From a virus, in IMG/VR virus record IMGVR_UViG_3300036795_000133, positions 60,996-124,995 of that record: 64,000 nt of DNA; one strand, written 5' to 3'. This document shows, piece after piece, positions 11,254 through 31,219 of the stretch (position 1 is the stretch's first letter; each line of letters opens with the position of its first letter). Under the pieces are notes generated by a model. That model saw only the letters and a list, made by a program, of their open reading frames with translations. It was not told where the DNA came from and did no database searches. The position numbers and the translations under genes were made by a program.

Positions 11254-11576
11254 CGTGAACTCTTCTCGCCCAGCATCCCGGACGCGTGCCACAGCCGCTC
11301 CGCCGCGCGGAACCGCTTGCGGTCAACCAGCCAGATAGCGGCGCCGTCGGCAGCGCGCGTCACGGCCAGCCGGGCGCGGACGCGGCGGGGCAGCGGAGTG
11401 CGCAGGCGCGGTTGCCTGTCCGCGACAGCACCGAGGGCCTCCGCGAACTGCTCAAGCTGGCGCTCCGGCAGGCGACCCGGCGGTATCAACTGGTCGCCGG
11501 GGCTCAGGAAGGCGGGAACTGCGTCACTATCCCGGGTGCCTCGCAGGATCATCCCGCCGCGCGCGAAACGGGTCAC
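11250..11576 (-). CDS. Hypothetical protein downstream of portal (108 aa)
   Basis: GTG start overlapping the portal stop. Arg-rich helical protein containing LSPGDQLIPPGRLPERQL and a central RVRARLAVTRAADGAAIW. Directly following portal, it may be a head-completion accessory, but no family is recognised. Confidence 0.6.
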   Translation of the reverse strand: MTRFARGGMILRGTRDSDAVPAFLSPGDQLIPPGRLPERQLEQFAEALGAVADRQPRLRTPLPRRVRARLAVTRAADGAAIWLVDRKRFRAAERLWHASGMLGEKSSR

Positions 11577-12943
11577 TTCCCCAGCCTCCCGTTCAGCCCG
11601 AGGGACGACGGTACCGGCGGAGGAGACGGTGCCCCGGTCGGCGGCGGGGGGATGTTCACGCCGCCCCGCGCCGCTGCCTGCTGCGCGATCGCCGTCCCCG
11701 CCGACGCGAGACCCGACATGGCGCCCAGCGACCCCGCCACGTCCGGCGGCATCCCCGGCGGCGGGTTAGCCGTCATCTGCTCCGTCCGCTGCGAGATGGT
11801 GTCCTTCAGCGCCTTGTGGACCTGGTCGACGTCGAGCTGCAGGACGCTCGCCATCCGCTCCGTCAAAAGGTCTACGACGCCGATCGGGATGTGAAGTGCG
11901 GGGGCCGCCACAATCTGCCCGAACAGGGTCATCAGGAGCTGCACCTGCTCGTCCTGGAGCGGGCCGAAGACCGCCTTCGGGAATGCGGCGCTGGCGCCGA
12001 AGTTGAGCATCACCAGGGGGCGGAGTACGTCATACGAGAGGGACTCGGCTATCTCCTTCGCCACCGCCTGGCGGGACTTGAGGAAGAAGTCGCTCTGGTC
12101 CTGAGACAACGCATAGGAACCCTTGCCTCCGGTGGCGACACCCGTCAGGCCGAGGAAGCCGGCGAGGACGGACATGATCTGCCAGTTCTCGAGGAAGTTC
12201 AGGCAGTCGGTGAAGAACGCGCCGGCGTCGGGGCTCTGGATCGACTCGAACATCTTCTGGCCCTCGATGGGGTGCGGGAGTCCCACGATCCCGGACGCCT
12301 TGAGCTGAGAGATGTCGTCAGCGTTGCGAGTTGCCTCGGGCTGATCATTTCCGTACACAATCAAACGGGGCATTGACTGTGATTCCAAGAAATTCAACCA
12401 CAAGTACAAGATTTTCAACTTCGTTTCGTACACCCAGTAAGCCGTTGACATCTCGCTGAGACCAGTCAGCGGCTCGCGGTGCTTGCCGTGGGTGTACACG
12501 TAGCTGCGGATCTTCGGAACATCTACGTAGCCGGGAACCTTCTGCTTGCTGCTCAGCATCAGGTTCCCGCCGAACAGCCACACCTGCTGGCGGAAGCCGT
12601 TCGGCTCCGCGGTCCGGTCGTTGTACCTCGCCTGGCAGGTGGCGGGCGGGCGGTAAGCGATCTTCCGGTAGATGACCTTGCCGTCTGCCTCGCGGATTCC
12701 CCAGACTTTCTCGAAGAAGGCTCTCTTAAAGATTTGCCCGGTACAAACCTGGCCGATCAGCTCAGTGACCGGCGTGGCCATGCCGCCGTCCGTATCGGGG
12801 GTCATCAAAACCGAGCGGCAGAACTCGGCCTCCCCGTTGTCGCCGAGCGACTTCTCGATGCTGAAGTCCGCCTGGCGGATAGGGAGGGTGAGGACGTTCT
12901 CAAGCGACGCGCAGACGCCGTCGCGAGACAACATCGTCGCCAT
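11573..12943 (-). CDS. Phage portal protein (DUF935/Mu gp29-like), main reading frame
   Basis: 456 aa from the only ATG available in this frame (12943). The frame is already open from about 13026 and reads VNGAGDVFDYGEWSSRD directly before the ATG, so the true protein probably extends upstream. Conserved portal features include the early LENVLTLPIRQADFSIE segment, the YWVYETKLKILYLWLNFLE helix, and the SVLAGFLGLTGVATGG region before a long helical C-terminus with a Pro-rich tail. Forms the dodecameric DNA channel at the head vertex. See the N-terminal fragment entry for the probable frameshift. Confidence 0.85.
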   Translation of the reverse strand: MATMLSRDGVCASLENVLTLPIRQADFSIEKSLGDNGEAEFCRSVLMTPDTDGGMATPVTELIGQVCTGQIFKRAFFEKVWGIREADGKVIYRKIAYRPPATCQARYNDRTAEPNGFRQQVWLFGGNLMLSSKQKVPGYVDVPKIRSYVYTHGKHREPLTGLSEMSTAYWVYETKLKILYLWLNFLESQSMPRLIVYGNDQPEATRNADDISQLKASGIVGLPHPIEGQKMFESIQSPDAGAFFTDCLNFLENWQIMSVLAGFLGLTGVATGGKGSYALSQDQSDFFLKSRQAVAKEIAESLSYDVLRPLVMLNFGASAAFPKAVFGPLQDEQVQLLMTLFGQIVAAPALHIPIGVVDLLTERMASVLQLDVDQVHKALKDTISQRTEQMTANPPPGMPPDVAGSLGAMSGLASAGTAIAQQAAARGGVNIPPPPTGAPSPPPVPSSLGLNGRLGK

Positions 12944-13307: not shown

Positions 13308-13802
13308 TCAGGCTTCCCTGGCCTCCCTCTCCGCCCGCTCGCGCTCGCGCCGGCGCTGCTGCCCGGCCCTCATGTTCTCCAGCGCCTGCTCGTTACGCCA
13401 GCCAGTGCCCGCGGCATTCGTGTTGCCCTTCAGGCTGTCGCCGATCTGCTCGCGCTGCTCGGCAGGCATGGGGCCACGCGCCTCCGCTGCGGCCTTCTTC
13501 TGCTCGGACATCTTGGCGCGCGACTCCGGCGTGTGCCTGCGCCCGGTAGAGGCCGCCCGGATCTTCTCGATAGCTTCCGGCGTGTGCTTGTCATATCCGC
13601 CGTGGCACTTCTTGCACAGCGGGACGTAGTTCATGACGTCATCAGGGTCGGTGTCGTGAACGTGCGCCCAGTCATGGGCTTGCTTGTCGATGCCGGCCCG
13701 GGTGCACTGGATGCACTTCCGGAGCTTCGCCTCGCCGCGCTCGGCGACGTTCCGCCGGTGGCGGCGCTGGTACTCCCTCTCCTCGTCTGGTGTCCTGGCC
13801 AT
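13308..13802 (-). CDS. HNH endonuclease (recombination endonuclease VII-like)
   Basis: 164 aa. Zinc-finger HNH layout: KCIQC near residue 30, then HDWAHVHDTDPDDVMNYVPLC and KKCHGGYDKHT, giving two CxxC pairs and a central His. The C-terminal half is a long basic helix. HNH enzymes of this size beside terminase and portal genes commonly help packaging by nicking or cutting DNA; others are free-standing homing enzymes. Start ATG overlaps nothing; the terminator-like repeat follows. Confidence 0.75.
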   Translation of the reverse strand: MARTPDEEREYQRRHRRNVAERGEAKLRKCIQCTRAGIDKQAHDWAHVHDTDPDDVMNYVPLCKKCHGGYDKHTPEAIEKIRAASTGRRHTPESRAKMSEQKKAAAEARGPMPAEQREQIGDSLKGNTNAAGTGWRNEQALENMRAGQQRRRERERAEREAREA

Positions 13803-14175: not shown

Positions 14176-14352
14176 ATGGATCGATGTCCGACATGCCACG
14201 GGCCGGTGCCGCCGCTGAAGACGTGCCCCGGCTGCGGGAATGAGTTCTACCGCACCGAGGCGGGCCGGTCGGATACCGAGTGCTGCTCGCAGCGGTGCGC
14301 GGCGCGGGTCCGCAAGCGCAGGCAGCGAAAGAGGGAGGCGGCGGCGGGATGA
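14176..14352 (+). CDS. Zinc-ribbon protein (58 aa), leaderless
   Basis: ATG lies 6 nt after a TATCAT box (14164-14169), so leaderless translation is likely. Three cysteine pairs: CPTCHG, CPGCGNEF and CCSQRC, ending in a basic RVRKRRQRKR tail. Probably a nucleic-acid-binding zinc protein. First gene of a nine-gene coupled plus-strand island. Confidence 0.65.
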   Translation: MDRCPTCHGPVPPLKTCPGCGNEFYRTEAGRSDTECCSQRCAARVRKRRQRKREAAAG

Positions 14353-14561
14353 CATGGGACATGAGCAGGCGAGACGGCCCGTTCTGCGAGGGATGCGAGG
14401 CTGTCCACGTAGCCGGCCGCGCCTGCCCCGGGTGCGGGACCAAGACGTGCCGCCGGTGCGGGTGGTGCTGCGAGCACGCGGACTGGACGGTGACGCCCGA
14501 CCCGAGCGAGGACGCGCCCGTGGTGACCAGCAACCGGCGGAAGCAGCGGGAGGAGCGGTAA
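14349..14561 (+). CDS. Cysteine-rich zinc protein (70 aa)
   Basis: ATGA overlap with the previous gene. Contains CEGCEAVHVAGRACPGCGTK and CRRCGWCCEHA, several CxxC knuckles. Likely binds zinc and nucleic acid or protein; no family assigned. Confidence 0.65.
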   Translation: MTWDMSRRDGPFCEGCEAVHVAGRACPGCGTKTCRRCGWCCEHADWTVTPDPSEDAPVVTSNRRKQREER

Positions 14562-14944
14562 TGCCGCAGCACGAGCTAACGAAGGACGGCGCCACCTGGT
14601 TCTGGTTCCCTGGCAAGGCGGAAGGGGACGAGCCGTTCGCCGGCTTCTGGGTGCCGAATATCCAGTGCGACGGCTACATCCCGGCCATTGACGGGATCGG
14701 CTTCAGCACCGAGGCGCAGTGCCAGGCGTGGATCGACGAGGCCGTGAAGGCAGCACCAGGCCAGCTGGCGGCAGTTGCCGCCCGTCCCGGCTACGGGCGC
14801 GGCGGGCAGACGCAGTCGCGGGCGGTGCACACGGCGGTGCAGGAGATCCTCGACCTGACCAGCCACGGCACGGACCTCGTCAAGAGCCATGAGTTCTTCC
14901 GGGTGCTGCGCGACCTGTACCTGGCGGGAAAGGCGGCGGGATGA
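14561..14944 (+). CDS. Hypothetical protein (127 aa)
   Basis: Stop/start overlap TAATG. Begins with an aromatic-rich part (DGATWFWFPGKAEGDEPFAG) and ends with a helical half containing AVQEILDLTSHGTDLVKSHEFF. No family recognised. Confidence 0.65.
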   Translation: MPQHELTKDGATWFWFPGKAEGDEPFAGFWVPNIQCDGYIPAIDGIGFSTEAQCQAWIDEAVKAAPGQLAAVAARPGYGRGGQTQSRAVHTAVQEILDLTSHGTDLVKSHEFFRVLRDLYLAGKAAG

Positions 14945-15198
14945 CGGCGCGCGAGAACTGGGAGCGCGAGATAGCGCGGCTCTGGCCTGAGATCCTGCGC
15001 AGTCCTGCCGCCTACGCGGCAGTCGGCCTGGCAGAGCAGGTGTTCGCCGAGTACGACGCCGACCTGAAGGGAACGCGGGAGACGGTGACAGACCTGGCGG
15101 AGAAGTGCCCTCTGCTCGCCAGCTCCGGGTCTAAGGTCAGCGTGCACGCGGGAACACGGGTCGACTGCCCTGTCTGCGGTTACGGTGACACGCCATGA
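14941..15198 (+). CDS. Hypothetical protein with C-terminal CxxC (85 aa)
   Basis: ATGA overlap. Helical body (ENWEREIARLWPEILRSPAAY) and a cysteine pair near the end, DCPVCGYGD. Function unknown. Confidence 0.6.
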   Translation: MTARENWEREIARLWPEILRSPAAYAAVGLAEQVFAEYDADLKGTRETVTDLAEKCPLLASSGSKVSVHAGTRVDCPVCGYGDTP

Positions 15199-15530
15199 CA
15201 AGTCACGAGGAACCACTGCCGCCCATGCCGCCAGGATGGATGCCCGCTACCGAGGAGCAGGTGGCCGCCCTCCGCGAGGGCATCAACAGGGAGATGCTGC
15301 CGGTTGGCCTTGACCTTGCCTGGCTGGCCGTGAACGGTGCGCTCGCGGGGGTCGCGGAGATCATCGCCGAGCGGAGGCGGCAGGTTGAGCAGCAGGACGA
15401 GGTGCTCGGCAAGCCCAGTCTGCCTGACGCCGCCGAGGCGGAACTGTACTTCGGGGACTACGCCAAGGCCGCCGCGCTGCTCGCCGCCGAGATCGACAGG
15501 ATGACGGCGGCCGAGGAGGAACAGCGATGA
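15195..15530 (+). CDS. Hypothetical helical protein (111 aa)
   Basis: ATGA overlap. Pro-rich start (PLPPMPPGWMPATEEQV), then helices including LAWLAVNGALAGVAEIIAER. No motif recognised. Confidence 0.65.
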   Translation: MTSHEEPLPPMPPGWMPATEEQVAALREGINREMLPVGLDLAWLAVNGALAGVAEIIAERRRQVEQQDEVLGKPSLPDAAEAELYFGDYAKAAALLAAEIDRMTAAEEEQR

Positions 15531-15862
15531 CGTGGAGCCTGGACTTCGCCCGCGACCCGGCGCGCGTAGCCGCCCTGTCGGAGCCGTCGGCACTGCCCCG
15601 CTGGGACGGCATCGGGTCATCCGAGGGCATGGGAACCGAACCGCGCCTGGTGCGCGCAGGTGCCCGGTTCACCGGCGGGCCGGGCCGGGAACGGGAAGCG
15701 GCCGAGGCGTGGGCGTTCGAGATGAAGGCGTACTTCAAGCGGGGCGTCGGGGAGCAGCCCCAGGTCACCTACGCGAACGGCACCTACACGGTTATCGGCC
15801 TGATCCAGACGACGCATCCCGGCGACCGTCCCCGCGCGGACGGGATCGTGTGGTTCACATGA
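15527..15862 (+). CDS. Hypothetical protein (111 aa)
   Basis: ATGA overlap. Contains FARDPARVAALSEPSALPRW and a C-terminal beta segment VTYANGTYTVIGLIQTTHPG. No family recognised; part of the coupled island. Confidence 0.65.
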   Translation: MTWSLDFARDPARVAALSEPSALPRWDGIGSSEGMGTEPRLVRAGARFTGGPGREREAAEAWAFEMKAYFKRGVGEQPQVTYANGTYTVIGLIQTTHPGDRPRADGIVWFT

Positions 15863-15875
15863 CCCGTGGGCAACC

Positions 15876-16247
15876 GTGAAGGCCGGGCGTGATTCCCAGG
15901 CCGGGCGCTGGCTCTGGCGCCACCTGCCGCACCGCCACCGCGGCGGAACCGGAGGTGCCAGCGTAACCCACCCGTTCTTCGAGCGGTTCCCTGATCCCCA
16001 GGCCTCGGTTCCCCGTTCCGTGAGCGGGCACCTTGCCTGGACGGCAGGAGACGCCGTAGCCGAGTGCGGTTCGGAAGCCGTAGTGACCGCGGACGGCGAC
16101 CTTCACGCACTGCGCCCGGTTCACCTTGTCGCCGTGGACGACATGGCCTCGTTCGCGGTGGCCCTGGAACTGTCTCCGGAAGCGGCGGAGGCACTGGCCG
16201 CGCGCCTCGCGGACGCGGCCCGGGCGGTGCGGGAGCGCCTGTCGTGA
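15876..16247 (+). CDS. Hypothetical protein (123 aa)
   Basis: GTG start 13 nt after the previous stop; a later GTG near 16020 is also possible. The C-terminal 60 residues are conserved-looking (AVALELSPEAAEALAARLAD), similar to tails of small immunity-type or regulator proteins. The N-terminal 30 residues are basic and may not be translated. Confidence 0.55.
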   Translation: MKAGRDSQAGRWLWRHLPHRHRGGTGGASVTHPFFERFPDPQASVPRSVSGHLAWTAGDAVAECGSEAVVTADGDLHALRPVHLVAVDDMASFAVALELSPEAAEALAARLADAARAVRERLS

Positions 16248-16444
16248 CCGCCGGCAGGGAATGCTGCGGCCTGCCGATGAGCACCCTGGACATATTCGGC
16301 ATCCGGCTTTACCGGTGCATGTACCGCGGTCATCACCCGCTGGTCTTCCGGAACCTGGGCACGGGCGAGGAACTCACCGAGAGCTACGACGACGGCAGAG
16401 ACGGCGGGCTGGAGTGGACGTCGCACTACGGCAGTGACAAGTGA
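16244..16444 (+). CDS. Small protein with CCG and beta core (66 aa)
   Basis: GTGA overlap. ECCGLPMSTLDIFGIRLYRC then GHHPLVFRNLGTGEEL. Two cysteine sites may bind a metal. Function unknown. Confidence 0.6.
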   Translation: MTAGRECCGLPMSTLDIFGIRLYRCMYRGHHPLVFRNLGTGEELTESYDDGRDGGLEWTSHYGSDK

Positions 16445-16456
16445 GGGGGATTGGCG

Positions 16457-16666
16457 ATGAGACTGGGCAAAGCGCGCCGGCGACCGCTGGAAGCACACGC
16501 GTGCCGCAGGTGCGGGGCAGAAGCAGGGCAGCCGTGCGTGACAGCATCCGGAAGGGCTGCGGACTGGCCGCATGCCGAGCGGTACAACGACGCCGATAAG
16601 GCGGCCGGGCGGGTGCGCGCTCCGCTCATGGAGGGCGCGAGACTACCCTCTACCGCCAGCTCCTGA
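16457..16666 (+). CDS. Zinc-knuckle protein (69 aa)
   Basis: ATG 16457 with GAGGGGG upstream. Carries ACRRCGAEAGQPCVTASGR followed by HAERY, the CxxC...GxPC...Cys/His layout common in small actinobacterial zinc-finger proteins. Last gene of the plus island; converges with the large terminase, overlapping its end by 17 nt. Confidence 0.65.
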   Translation: MRLGKARRRPLEAHACRRCGAEAGQPCVTASGRAADWPHAERYNDADKAAGRVRAPLMEGARLPSTASS

Positions 16667-18341
16667 CATTTCCCCGCACCGGCAGGTCCCGGTCATCGGC
16701 AGGAGCGAAGCCGTCGAGCCCGTCCAGTCCCCACGGGGCGTCCTCGGGGACATCGGCCGCGCGGCCCTGGATTTCGCGCATGCGGCGGTGGGCTTTCGTT
16801 TCCTCGGCCACGCCCATGTCGGCGAGGTCGGCTGAGCCGGCCCACTTCCGCACGCTGCCCGGTGAGGCGTCGCCGAGGTGCGGGACGAAGCTTTGCACCA
16901 CGGCATCGCCGTCGTCCGTTGACCTGCCCAAACGCTTGTAAATGTCCTCTTTGCGCTCAACCTGGATCTTGCCGCCGGAGGTGACCTTCCACTGCGGTGC
17001 CGAAAGGTCGCCTAGGAGCATCTCGTCGTCCGGGAAGCAGATGTCCGGGTCGCTAGACGGGTCAAGCGCCTGCCTCATCGTCCACCACGCCTCACTCCGG
17101 CGGTTCGCGAAGCCGAACTCCCTTGTGCTGTCTTTTGCCTTGGACCCGCGGGAGGCGTTGAACGCCAGCACCTTCATGTGCAACTCCCGCAGCCGGTCAA
17201 CCACGCCCGCACCGATACCGATCACGTCGACTACCGCGGTGTAGGAGTCGTCGGCCTCGAGGATGCCCTTCACGCGCCCGGTGGTCTGCATCGTGTCTTC
17301 CTTCACCGACCGGCGCAGCTCGGTGATGACGGGGCCGTTGCGGAGGGCGAGGACGGTGCGGTCCTGGCCGGTGCGGGCCACATCCACCCCGACGACACGG
17401 GGCCTGCCCGCGTTCGGCCGCCCGGCCTCGTCCCAGGCGTGCCAGCGGGCTACCGCCGCCTCCGCCCACGCGAGCGGGATGACCGAGTCCTCGTCGCTGG
17501 CGTAGAACTCGCCCAGGACGCGGTTCTGGTAGATCGCCGACGCGGTACCCCACTGCCGGGCGCGCTGCTCCGCCCACTCTTCGGTGATGCGGCCCGCGTC
17601 CATGGCGTCGTCGAGCGTGACGTGGACCGGGTGCCAGTCCTCGTAGCCGGGGCGGCGGGTGCAGATGTCGTAGAAGCGGCCCTGCGGCTGGCCAGGCGTG
17701 GACAGCGCCAGGGCGAACGCCTCGGTGCCGCCCTCGCCGGAACTGGAGAACGCGCCCTCGCATGCGTCGAACGTGCCCGAGGGGATGGCCTTGGCCTCGT
17801 CGTATACGAACATCAGCGAGTCGGCGTGAGCGCCCTCGATCAGGGCCGCGTTAGCCGACGCGGCAGCGAAGGCGGCACCGTGGGCAAGCTTGAGGTTGAT
17901 GTTCTGCAGCTCGTTGGCCCGGGAGAACGGGCGGCCGTCGCGGACCTTGTCCCAGCGGAGCTTCCCGGCCCACTTGTGGATCTCAGGCCAGGTGTATGCA
18001 GTCAACTGGTGCCATGACCCGGCGGTCGTGACGACTTTCCAGTCCACCCCGGCCGCGTCCCGCGTCAGGGCGAACCACAGGACGGCTATCGCAGCCTGAG
18101 AACTTTTCCCCAATCCATGGGGGCCCCGGACGGCCTCGCGCTTGCGCTCCGGGAGCGAGCCGAGGATCTCTTCCTGGTAGACCGTCAGGCCGTCGCCGCT
18201 ACCCCAGTCGATGCAGTCATGCGCGAATCCGACCGGGTCGTCGTAGTACCGGGTGATCCCGTGCTTGATCTTCGCAGCGCGGCGCTGGAGCTCCAGCAGG
18301 TACCGCAGGCGGTCAGGGGGTGCCTGAACCAGCGGGGTCAT
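16650..18341 (-). CDS. terL: Terminase large subunit
   Basis: 563 aa from ATG 18341; it overlaps the small terminase end by 29 nt, and the ten extra upstream codons are less likely. Walker A RGPHGLGKSSQ near residues 72-81, Walker B LMFVYDEAKAI near 160, then a C-terminal nuclease with VVGVDVARTGQDRTV and VVDVIGIGAGVVDRL, and the late acidic DDGDAVVQSF. Packages DNA into proheads using ATP and cuts it. Read leftward toward portal, although a plus-strand island separates the two. Confidence 0.9.
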   Translation of the reverse strand: MTPLVQAPPDRLRYLLELQRRAAKIKHGITRYYDDPVGFAHDCIDWGSGDGLTVYQEEILGSLPERKREAVRGPHGLGKSSQAAIAVLWFALTRDAAGVDWKVVTTAGSWHQLTAYTWPEIHKWAGKLRWDKVRDGRPFSRANELQNINLKLAHGAAFAAASANAALIEGAHADSLMFVYDEAKAIPSGTFDACEGAFSSSGEGGTEAFALALSTPGQPQGRFYDICTRRPGYEDWHPVHVTLDDAMDAGRITEEWAEQRARQWGTASAIYQNRVLGEFYASDEDSVIPLAWAEAAVARWHAWDEAGRPNAGRPRVVGVDVARTGQDRTVLALRNGPVITELRRSVKEDTMQTTGRVKGILEADDSYTAVVDVIGIGAGVVDRLRELHMKVLAFNASRGSKAKDSTREFGFANRRSEAWWTMRQALDPSSDPDICFPDDEMLLGDLSAPQWKVTSGGKIQVERKEDIYKRLGRSTDDGDAVVQSFVPHLGDASPGSVRKWAGSADLADMGVAEETKAHRRMREIQGRAADVPEDAPWGLDGLDGFAPADDRDLPVRGNVRSWR

Positions 18342-18897
18342 TGCGGGCCAGCTGGGACTCAAGGTCAGCAATCTGAGACTCGACCATGTCGGCCGTGATC
18401 ACCTCGACGCGGGACTTGGCGGGGGCGTCGTAGCCGTGCATCCTGGCCCGCCGCTCGATCAGCCGCAGGATCGTGACGCTGTGCACCGCGATCGGCCCGT
18501 CGTCGAGGACGTCCTCGAACACCGGGATCGGGTTGCCGTCCGCGTCCAGCTTCTCGATGCCGTCCTCGTGGCGCTCCACCCCGGTGAACCGGCGGACTAC
18601 CCGGCCGTTGGAGACGGCGACGTGCTGCCGTTCCAGGGCTTCCCAGTTCTTCTCGATCAGCCGGTCGAGGCGCTCGAAGTCAATGCGCTTGGCCTGCTCC
18701 GCGCCGGGGGTGACGATCATCTCGTAGGCGCGGTCGATGGCCTCGCTGACCTTGCCGCGTGACGCGAACCCGAGCTCGGCGGCGATCCGCTCGTGGGTCC
18801 AGCCCTGCCCGTGGAGCTCAGCGGCGCGCATATCGCGGGCCGCCGATGCCGGGGTGCGGCGGAACTGGCCGTTGGCGCCGCGTGTTCCCCCGGTCAT
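18313..18897 (-). CDS. terS: Terminase small subunit (DNA-binding)
   Basis: 194 aa. Helix-turn-helix-like segment WTHERIAAELGFASRGKVSEAI near residues 35-55, helical middle, and a C-terminal stretch MVESQIADLESQLARND. Overlaps the large terminase start. Its assignment rests on the N-terminal HTH plus position directly before terL. It would recognise the packaging site and recruit the large subunit. Confidence 0.75.
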   Translation of the reverse strand: MTGGTRGANGQFRRTPASAARDMRAAELHGQGWTHERIAAELGFASRGKVSEAIDRAYEMIVTPGAEQAKRIDFERLDRLIEKNWEALERQHVAVSNGRVVRRFTGVERHEDGIEKLDADGNPIPVFEDVLDDGPIAVHSVTILRLIERRARMHGYDAPAKSRVEVITADMVESQIADLESQLARNDPAGSGTP

Positions 18898-19685: not shown

Positions 19686-20135
19686 TCACAGCCACAACCC
19701 GGCTAGTCCGCACGCCGCGCCCGTGACGAGCAGCAGCCCGAACGTCTCCACGACGGCCAGAGCGCCCTTCTCCGGCCTCAGCCAGGAGATAACCGCGGCC
19801 ACGGCGGCGCAGAGCGCCAGGGCGGCAGTGAGGGCCGCTGATCCGCTGCTGAAGCTGTACGGGACGGCCGGGAGCGCGCAACCGGCTAGGCTCGCGATGC
19901 CGATGGCGACCGCCGGGAGCCAGCCTGAGCTTGAGTCGCTGATCCTCTGTCCGTTCGCCATGCTGAACAACTCGGCGATTCCACCGGAGAGCGCTGCGGC
20001 CCAGACGGCGTGCGCGGGCTGGTGACTGACGATCATGCCGGCGATGACGCCGAGAACGATCCCCAGGCCGTCGGCCGCGCCGAACGTGGCCACGCGCTTT
20101 AGGTCAGCGCGGGCAGTGACGGCGGCGGCGTTCAT
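19686..20135 (-). CDS. Small membrane protein, possible VIT1/CCC1-like
   Basis: 149 aa, start ATG 20135 preceded by GGGG; a poorer start lies at 20180. Four or five hydrophobic segments (ADGLGIVLGVIAGMIVSH, AVWAAALSGGIAELFSMANG, VAIGIASLAGCALPAVPY, and two more). The DGLGxxxGxxxG plus GGxxE layout is reminiscent of VIT1/CCC1 transporters, and holins remain another possibility. Its promoter region contains palindrome site C. Confidence 0.6.
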   Translation of the reverse strand: MNAAAVTARADLKRVATFGAADGLGIVLGVIAGMIVSHQPAHAVWAAALSGGIAELFSMANGQRISDSSSGWLPAVAIGIASLAGCALPAVPYSFSSGSAALTAALALCAAVAAVISWLRPEKGALAVVETFGLLLVTGAACGLAGLWL

Positions 20136-20152: not shown

Positions 20153-20169
20153 ATGCACGTGCATCTGCA
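20153..20169. promoter_or_regulatory. Palindromic operator, site C
   Basis: Perfect 12-mer ATGCACGTGCAT (20153-20164) followed by CTGCA, in the divergent intergenic space between the membrane gene (start 20135, leftward) and the Acb2-like gene (start 20204, rightward). On the minus strand it reads TGCAGA then TGCACGTGCAT as in site D. A TATGAT box is at 20142-20147 on the plus strand. Confidence 0.55.
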
Positions 20170-20203
20170 CACGCACGCACCGCGCAGGTCAGGAGAGGAA
20201 GCG

Positions 20204-20413
20204 ATGACGCCGCACGAGATCGAGAACGCGTTCACCTACCACCCGCCGAAGGGCGACCAGGCACAGCGGTACGAGAAGATCAGGTACCACGGCAAGACCT
20301 TCGCCCAGGTCATCGACGAGGAAGTACCAGACGGGCCGGAGAAGGACACTGCAGTCCTGCGGCTGCGCGAGGCGGTCATGTGGGCTAACGCGGCTATCGC
20401 GTGCGGCGAGTGA
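20204..20413 (+). CDS. acb2: Acb2-like anti-CBASS cyclic-nucleotide sponge
   Basis: 69 aa, AGGAGAGG 6 nt before the ATG. Reads IENAFTYHPPKGDQAQRYE in the first third and LREAVMWANAAIACGE at the end, with a helical middle containing VIDEEVPDGPEKDTAV. This matches the Acb2 pattern as I remember it (FTYHPPKGDQ, R/Y helix, P-x-S/G-x-E-K, A-V-x-W-A-N-A-A-I-A). Acb2 proteins form hexamers that sequester cyclic di- and trinucleotides and so block CBASS defence. It is a lone plus-strand gene under palindrome site C, between the terminase-linked membrane genes and the minus-strand accessory chain. Confidence 0.8.
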   Translation: MTPHEIENAFTYHPPKGDQAQRYEKIRYHGKTFAQVIDEEVPDGPEKDTAVLRLREAVMWANAAIACGE

Positions 20414-20420
20414 CGCCCCG

Positions 20421-20762
20421 CTACTCGTCCTCGAGCGCCTCGCGGGCGCGGGTGATCCGGTCCTCAAGCCGCGCAAGCCTCGCCGACGCCTGCCCGTCCA
20501 GCTCCCCGGCTGTCATACCCGGCACCGCGGCGAGCAGGTCAGCGAGCGTCACGCCGAAGAGGCAGGCGAAGGCTGCGGCCTCGTTAAGGCGGAGCGGTCG
20601 CTGGCCTGCCTCGGTTTTCGCGATCGACGTCTGGTGGAAGTCGTACCCGTAGGCGTCCATGCGGCGTGCGGTTTCCTCCTGGGACCAGCGGCGGGCCTCC
20701 CGCAGCCTGCGCAGTTCCCGGCCCGCGGCCTCTTCCGGCGAGCACTGGTCAGTCGCCAGCAT
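20421..20762 (-). CDS. XRE-type helix-turn-helix regulator
   Basis: 113 aa; ATG 20762 with GGAGCAG upstream. HTH at residues 20-70: RRLREARRWSQEETARRM, then HQTSIAKTEAGQRPLRLNE and FGVTLADLL. The C-terminal third is a coiled helix. It is the last gene of the long minus-strand chain and could regulate it or the nearby Acb2 gene. Confidence 0.8.
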   Translation of the reverse strand: MLATDQCSPEEAAGRELRRLREARRWSQEETARRMDAYGYDFHQTSIAKTEAGQRPLRLNEAAAFACLFGVTLADLLAAVPGMTAGELDGQASARLARLEDRITRAREALEDE

Positions 20763-31190: not shown

Positions 31191-31219
31191 TGCAGATGCA
31201 CGTGCATCGGGCCTATGCT
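31191..31219 (+). promoter_or_regulatory. Promoter with palindromic operator, site D
   Basis: -35 TGCAGA (31191-31196), 17-nt spacer and -10 TATGCT (31214-31219). The spacer contains TGCACGTGCA (31197-31206), so a protein bound there would cover the promoter. Drives the rightward lysis cassette beginning at 31267. Confidence 0.65.

Follow-up and report, generated by a model that had tools for sequence, protein, structure and literature searches.

Among the closest described systems are the Acb2 proteins of phage T4 (Vs.4, PDB 7UQ2) and Pseudomonas phage PaMx33/PaP2 (p26, PDB 8H2J, 8IXZ), and Tad1 of a Clostridium botulinum prophage (PDB 7UAV, 7UAW). Vs.4, which ITC, a crystal structure and phage genetics have proven to be an Acb2, is a hexamer that binds cGAMP with a Kd of about 30 nM; its Y8 stacks on the ligand, its K23 makes hydrogen bonds and salt bridges, and mutants have been described (PMC10097602). 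The published Acb2 protomer consists of a short N-terminal helix followed by two long antiparallel helices (PMC12043709, PMC10419184).

In a 64,000-nucleotide stretch of viral DNA (the window; bases 60996-124995 of a 124,995-base IMG/VR virus record), a plus-strand open reading frame that begins at an ATG at 20204 and ends with a stop codon at 20411-20413 encodes a 69-residue protein, MTPHEIENAFTYHPPKGDQAQRYEKIRYHGKTFAQVIDEEVPDGPEKDTAVLRLREAVMWANAAIACGE. The product of this acb2-like gene is very probably an Acb2-type phage sponge, which would soak up cyclic oligonucleotide alarm signals and thereby blind the CBASS defense of the host. Identification of the protein as Acb2-type is well supported by sequence comparison and structure prediction, whereas its hexameric state, ligand binding, the identity of its signal and its anti-CBASS effect are what we infer by analogy with the proven sponges. 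In the mechanism we propose, the protein would fold as one short helix followed by a hairpin of two helices, and protomers would probably assemble into a compact homohexamer with pockets between protomers. These pockets could bind cyclic oligonucleotide signals, cyclic dinucleotides (for example cGAMP) being the most likely; Y12 would stack on a base, and R27 would contact the phosphates. Because signals would be sequestered without being cut, the CBASS effector of the host would not be triggered and the phage could replicate.

Gene, family and predicted fold

The acb2-like open reading frame (20204-20413, plus strand) is a real gene, with similarity to its relatives that lies far beyond chance. 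It is short, and the DNA around it is 69% GC, in which open frames are common, as would suit a spurious reading frame or a coincidental match between short helices. The likelihood of such an artifact is negligible: the protein matches the Pfam family PF24729 (Acb2/Tad1, hairpin domain) with an E value of 1.1e-17, and relatives that align over nearly its whole length are encoded in 145 IMG/VR stretches, with about 46-61% identity among the best 80 of the 145. The GC content at its three codon positions (0.64/0.41/0.87) resembles that of neighboring genes, with the high third-position value of coding sequence, and a purine-rich candidate ribosome-binding site, GGAGAGGAAGCG, can be read at 20191-20202 (plus strand), where it would serve the ATG at 20204. 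An alternative start at 20153, which would give 86 residues, is less probable, since the position of the purine-rich site suits 20204, close to which relatives also start.

The PF24729 match scores 64.4 bits, far above the cut-off of 27 bits, and covers the whole profile, just as T4 Vs.4 matches the profile end to end (positions 1 to 58, 71.4 bits, 7e-20); a PF24729 search of 14 control genomes gave no match. Among phage families, the closest is PHROG 1454 (3.5e-23), which bears no function label and is distinct from PHROG 717, the family of T4 Vs.4 (PMC10097602). NCBIfam contained no model for the protein. A single-sequence phmmer search of the PDB found no Acb2, so that a profile of the family was needed for a sequence match there; this profile matched 9ptq, 'Acb2 homolog 43' (8.6e-6), and, through its C-terminal half (SRENACALTHVEEALMWMN aligned against SREKSLALTKLEEAVMWANA), also Tad1 chains (about 0.02).

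The match to Tad1, which places the family between Acb2 and Tad1 in sequence, bears on the question of target. Likeness to Tad1 lies in the C-terminal helical hairpin and its SRENACALTHVEEALMWMN block, and the ligand sets of sponges are reported to overlap (PMC12043709), so one could propose a hairpin-domain sponge aimed mainly at signals outside CBASS, either Thoeris signals of the gcADPR type, like Tad1, or the cA3 of type III CRISPR systems. We regard such a target as improbable. The Tad1 chains in the PDB comprise about 125-140 residues and carry an N-terminal antiparallel β-sheet, whereas our reading frame extends just 19 codons upstream of the ATG at 20204, to a maximum of 88 residues, which leaves no room for the sheet; the predicted structure is purely helical, and Vs.4 outranks Tad1 in a fold search. 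Tad1 identity was rejected on architectural grounds. Tad2 identity was rejected as well: the Tad2-like family PF11195 is not among the Pfam matches of the protein and was absent from the whole virus record. Family membership suggests CBASS, rather than Thoeris or type III CRISPR signals, as the probable target of the Acb2-type sponge.

The AF2 monomer model of the 69-residue protein, computed from 37 aligned relatives (rows from the window and from IMG/VR), has a mean pLDDT of 93, with helices at residues 3-10, 19-40 and 45-68 and no strands. With its short helix, its hairpin of two helices and no β-sheet, this predicted fold matches the published Acb2 layout, and predicted viral structures in BFVD that are named as Acb2/Tad1 hairpins superimpose on it with TM scores of up to 0.96. 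In the PDB, the best fold match is 7uq2, that is, T4 Vs.4 itself, with Tad1 ranking lower; this match is weak (E 0.85, TM 0.61) and carries limited weight, as a small helical hairpin holds little information. The founding Acb2s are longer, at 88-94 residues, and the loop between the two long helices is shorter in our protein.

The initial annotation had described an Acb2-like gene in an actinobacterial element and had named a profile search and a structural comparison as ways to check it. The profile search bears the reading out, and together with the helical model it indicates a hairpin-only architecture; the structural comparison agrees as far as the monomer prediction and the identity of the best PDB match are concerned, with the weakness of that match as the qualification. 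The annotation had also taken two strings in the protein, FTYHPPKGDQ and AVMWANAAIA, for conserved blocks of Acb2. Both strings are present, but they proved to be hallmarks of the PHROG 1454 subfamily and not of the founding Acb2s, in which the equivalent segments read GYKPHTEEK and SMWACRAVF (T4 Vs.4) or GYRDLSQEE and MMAIIRAIA (PaMx33-type p26).

Ligand pocket and probable signals

Our protein and T4 Vs.4 are about 25% identical. The gene, its family, its predicted monomer fold, the absence of the Tad1 β domain and the register of its pocket residues with those of the T4 and PaMx33 Acb2s are established directly. In the alignment, T4 Y8 corresponds to Y12 and T4 K23 to R27, a conservative Lys-to-Arg change, so that the protein has both the Tyr and the basic residue of the dinucleotide pocket; their spacing of 15 residues is kept and recurs in p26 (Y11 and K26). 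The small residues A50, A57 and A61 align with the hexamer-interface alanines of T4 (A66, A73 and A77). Across 75 unique relatives, Y12 and R27 are each conserved in 74 and A61 in all 75, and near-invariance of Y12, H13, P15, R27, N62 and A66 suggests that a binding site has been retained.

Other cGAMP contacts of Vs.4 have no counterpart, as H11 is replaced by P15, R79 by A63 and F82 by A66. The changes at R79 and F82, a proline (P45) where most relatives have Arg, and the label 'hypothetical protein' that is all many database relatives carry would fit loss of ligand binding in this homologue and a new role, for example structural or regulatory, as a small hairpin protein. Against such a loss, which we consider very unlikely, stand the near-invariant residues listed above and the proven sponge p26, which likewise has Ala at the position of T4 F82. 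Indeed, p26 lacks both the Phe and the His of T4, so the H11, R79 and F82 contacts cannot be strictly defining for an Acb2.

R67 of PaMx33 Acb2 is presumably a contact for the trinucleotide cA3. The residue aligned with it is P45 in our protein, Asp in Vs.4 and Arg in 57 of the 75 unique relatives. Given the retained Y12 and R27, the proline at the R67 position and a charge swap at residues 55 and 67, the sponge would be expected to bind dinucleotides, with trinucleotide binding unsure; comparison at these positions leaves dinucleotide binding the better supported of the two.

Relatives and a subfamily split

Hairpin-only sponges of the PHROG 1454 subfamily are widespread, although most still carry the label 'hypothetical protein'. 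A tblastn search of annotated phages returned relatives in 262 records at E<=0.01, mostly from Mycobacterium, Paenibacillus, Gordonia and Streptomyces phages, and 69 bacterial genome contigs spanning many phyla also encode relatives. Within actinophages, which infect the same kind of host as the phage studied here, this kind of sponge is already known, since the relative in Mycobacterium phage StellaBean (gp101) is annotated as a 'cyclic nucleotide sequestering protein' and a putative Acb2 has been reported in Microbacterium phage Statler (PMC13348362). Statler gp57 is likened to our protein by its published description, not by alignment. A third actinophage relative, ScoobyDoobyDoo gp210, is 56% identical to it over 62 residues and shares the subfamily motifs; this protein (2980-3426 of L083) and several others exceed the hairpin in length, gp210 by a C-terminal extension fused to the hairpin, whereas ours is hairpin only. 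Gene neighborhoods also differ between our gene and the hairpin-only relatives of actinophages and Paenibacillus phages. Our gene adds another actinophage carrier of sponge-type anti-CBASS proteins, and because pairwise similarity is marginal, family surveys seeded with T4 or PaMx33 Acb2 may undercount relatives of the PHROG 1454 type.

Four positions, 45, 52, 55 and 67, divide the family. Among 142 unique relatives, 109 pair an acidic residue 55 with a basic residue 67 (an acidic 55 occurs once with Phe). All 24 sequences with Arg55 have Cys, Ile or Leu at 67, 22 of these 24 lack Arg45, and Arg52 is frequent among them. In a tree, the Arg55 sequences form one clade with a few Gln55 sequences and one acidic sequence (support 99/85), although the tree is built on a short protein and its forks are weak. 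The swap at 55/67 requires one to three evolutionary changes on this tree, so the counts are not independent observations, and strong compensatory covariation was marked down as an explanation of the pairing, since the Arg55 sequences fall nearly into a single clade. We regard the split as a subfamily trait that may mark ligand choice. Our protein belongs to a minority clade, with Pro at 45 and the charge swap at 55/67. That the ligand spectrum of this clade is altered, making it a sponge subtype tuned to a different signal than the classical Acb2s, is a tentative and rather doubtful extension of this idea. The split offers concrete positions at which ligand choice could be tested.

Phage, host and locus

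The terminase encoded in the window is closest to those of Streptomyces phage TurkishDelight (58%) and Actinoplanes phage phiAsp2 (52%), and the same virus record contains a phage-integrase family gene outside the window (record G000, C1:23035-23544), which suggests a temperate phage. The source is therefore a tailed actinobacterial phage that is possibly temperate. That actinobacterial CBASS systems exist, as the initial annotation stated, is borne out in Streptomyces, the genus to which the Streptomyces natalensis contig L144 belongs: of 101 genomes sampled from it, at least 15 carry the CBASS synthase domain SMODS (PF18144), a lower bound because one genome (G001) matched in one search and not in another. 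A signal for the sponge to bind in Streptomyces-type hosts is thus plausible. PF24729 itself is present in 4 of the 101 genomes. Carrying a sponge also has a cost, as the Panoptes defense responds to Acb2 and is triggered by it (PMC12657218).

On the plus strand, the acb2-like gene forms a single-gene unit; its immediate neighbors on either side, as had been noted, lie on the minus strand. It diverges from a gene for a 149-residue VIT1-like membrane protein (19689-20135, minus strand) and converges, with few bases between, on a gene for an XRE-type HTH regulator (20424-20762, minus strand; HTH_31, 2.3e-10). The VIT1 (iron/manganese transporter family) match is weak, covering the N-terminal part of the protein at 28.0 bits, just below the cut-off, and no relative of this protein was found in 50,697 phage records. 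A scan of 20 neighboring reading frames revealed no recognized counter-defense gene.

Further away lie the structural and packaging genes, all on the minus strand: a Mu-like portal (11576-12943) with an adjoining NUMOD3/HNH homing-type endonuclease (13311-13802), the terminase large subunit (16653-18371) and, preceding it, the probable terminase small subunit (18316-18897), for which the label 'RNase E' of its best PHROG match (phrog_645, 3.3e-19) may mislead. Between portal and terminase, a run of small plus-strand reading frames (14240-16663), ending with a phage zinc-finger protein (PF24623; 16451-16663, plus strand), interrupts this otherwise minus-strand region. Because the terminase and portal genes are on the opposite strand, the acb2-like gene cannot be on their transcript, and the proposal that it is expressed with the structural promoters does not hold. 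A search for sigma-70-like promoters around the acb2-like gene gave none.

The palindrome described upstream of the divergent gene is present as a perfect 12-bp element, ATGCACGTGCAT, at 20153-20164, between the acb2-like and VIT1-like genes; the ATG of the less likely start lies within it. The window contains three exact copies (693-704, 20153-20164 and 31196-31207) and eight matches with up to two mismatches, where 1.6 would be expected. In two cases the palindrome precedes a plus-strand start codon, by 39 bp for the copy at 20153-20164 ahead of the acb2-like start and by 59 bp for the other. These copies are likely candidate operators of a phage regulator. Degenerate neighbors of ATGCACGTGCAT with GTGCATCTGCACG half-sites also occur, with near-matches at 718, 13205 and 49990.
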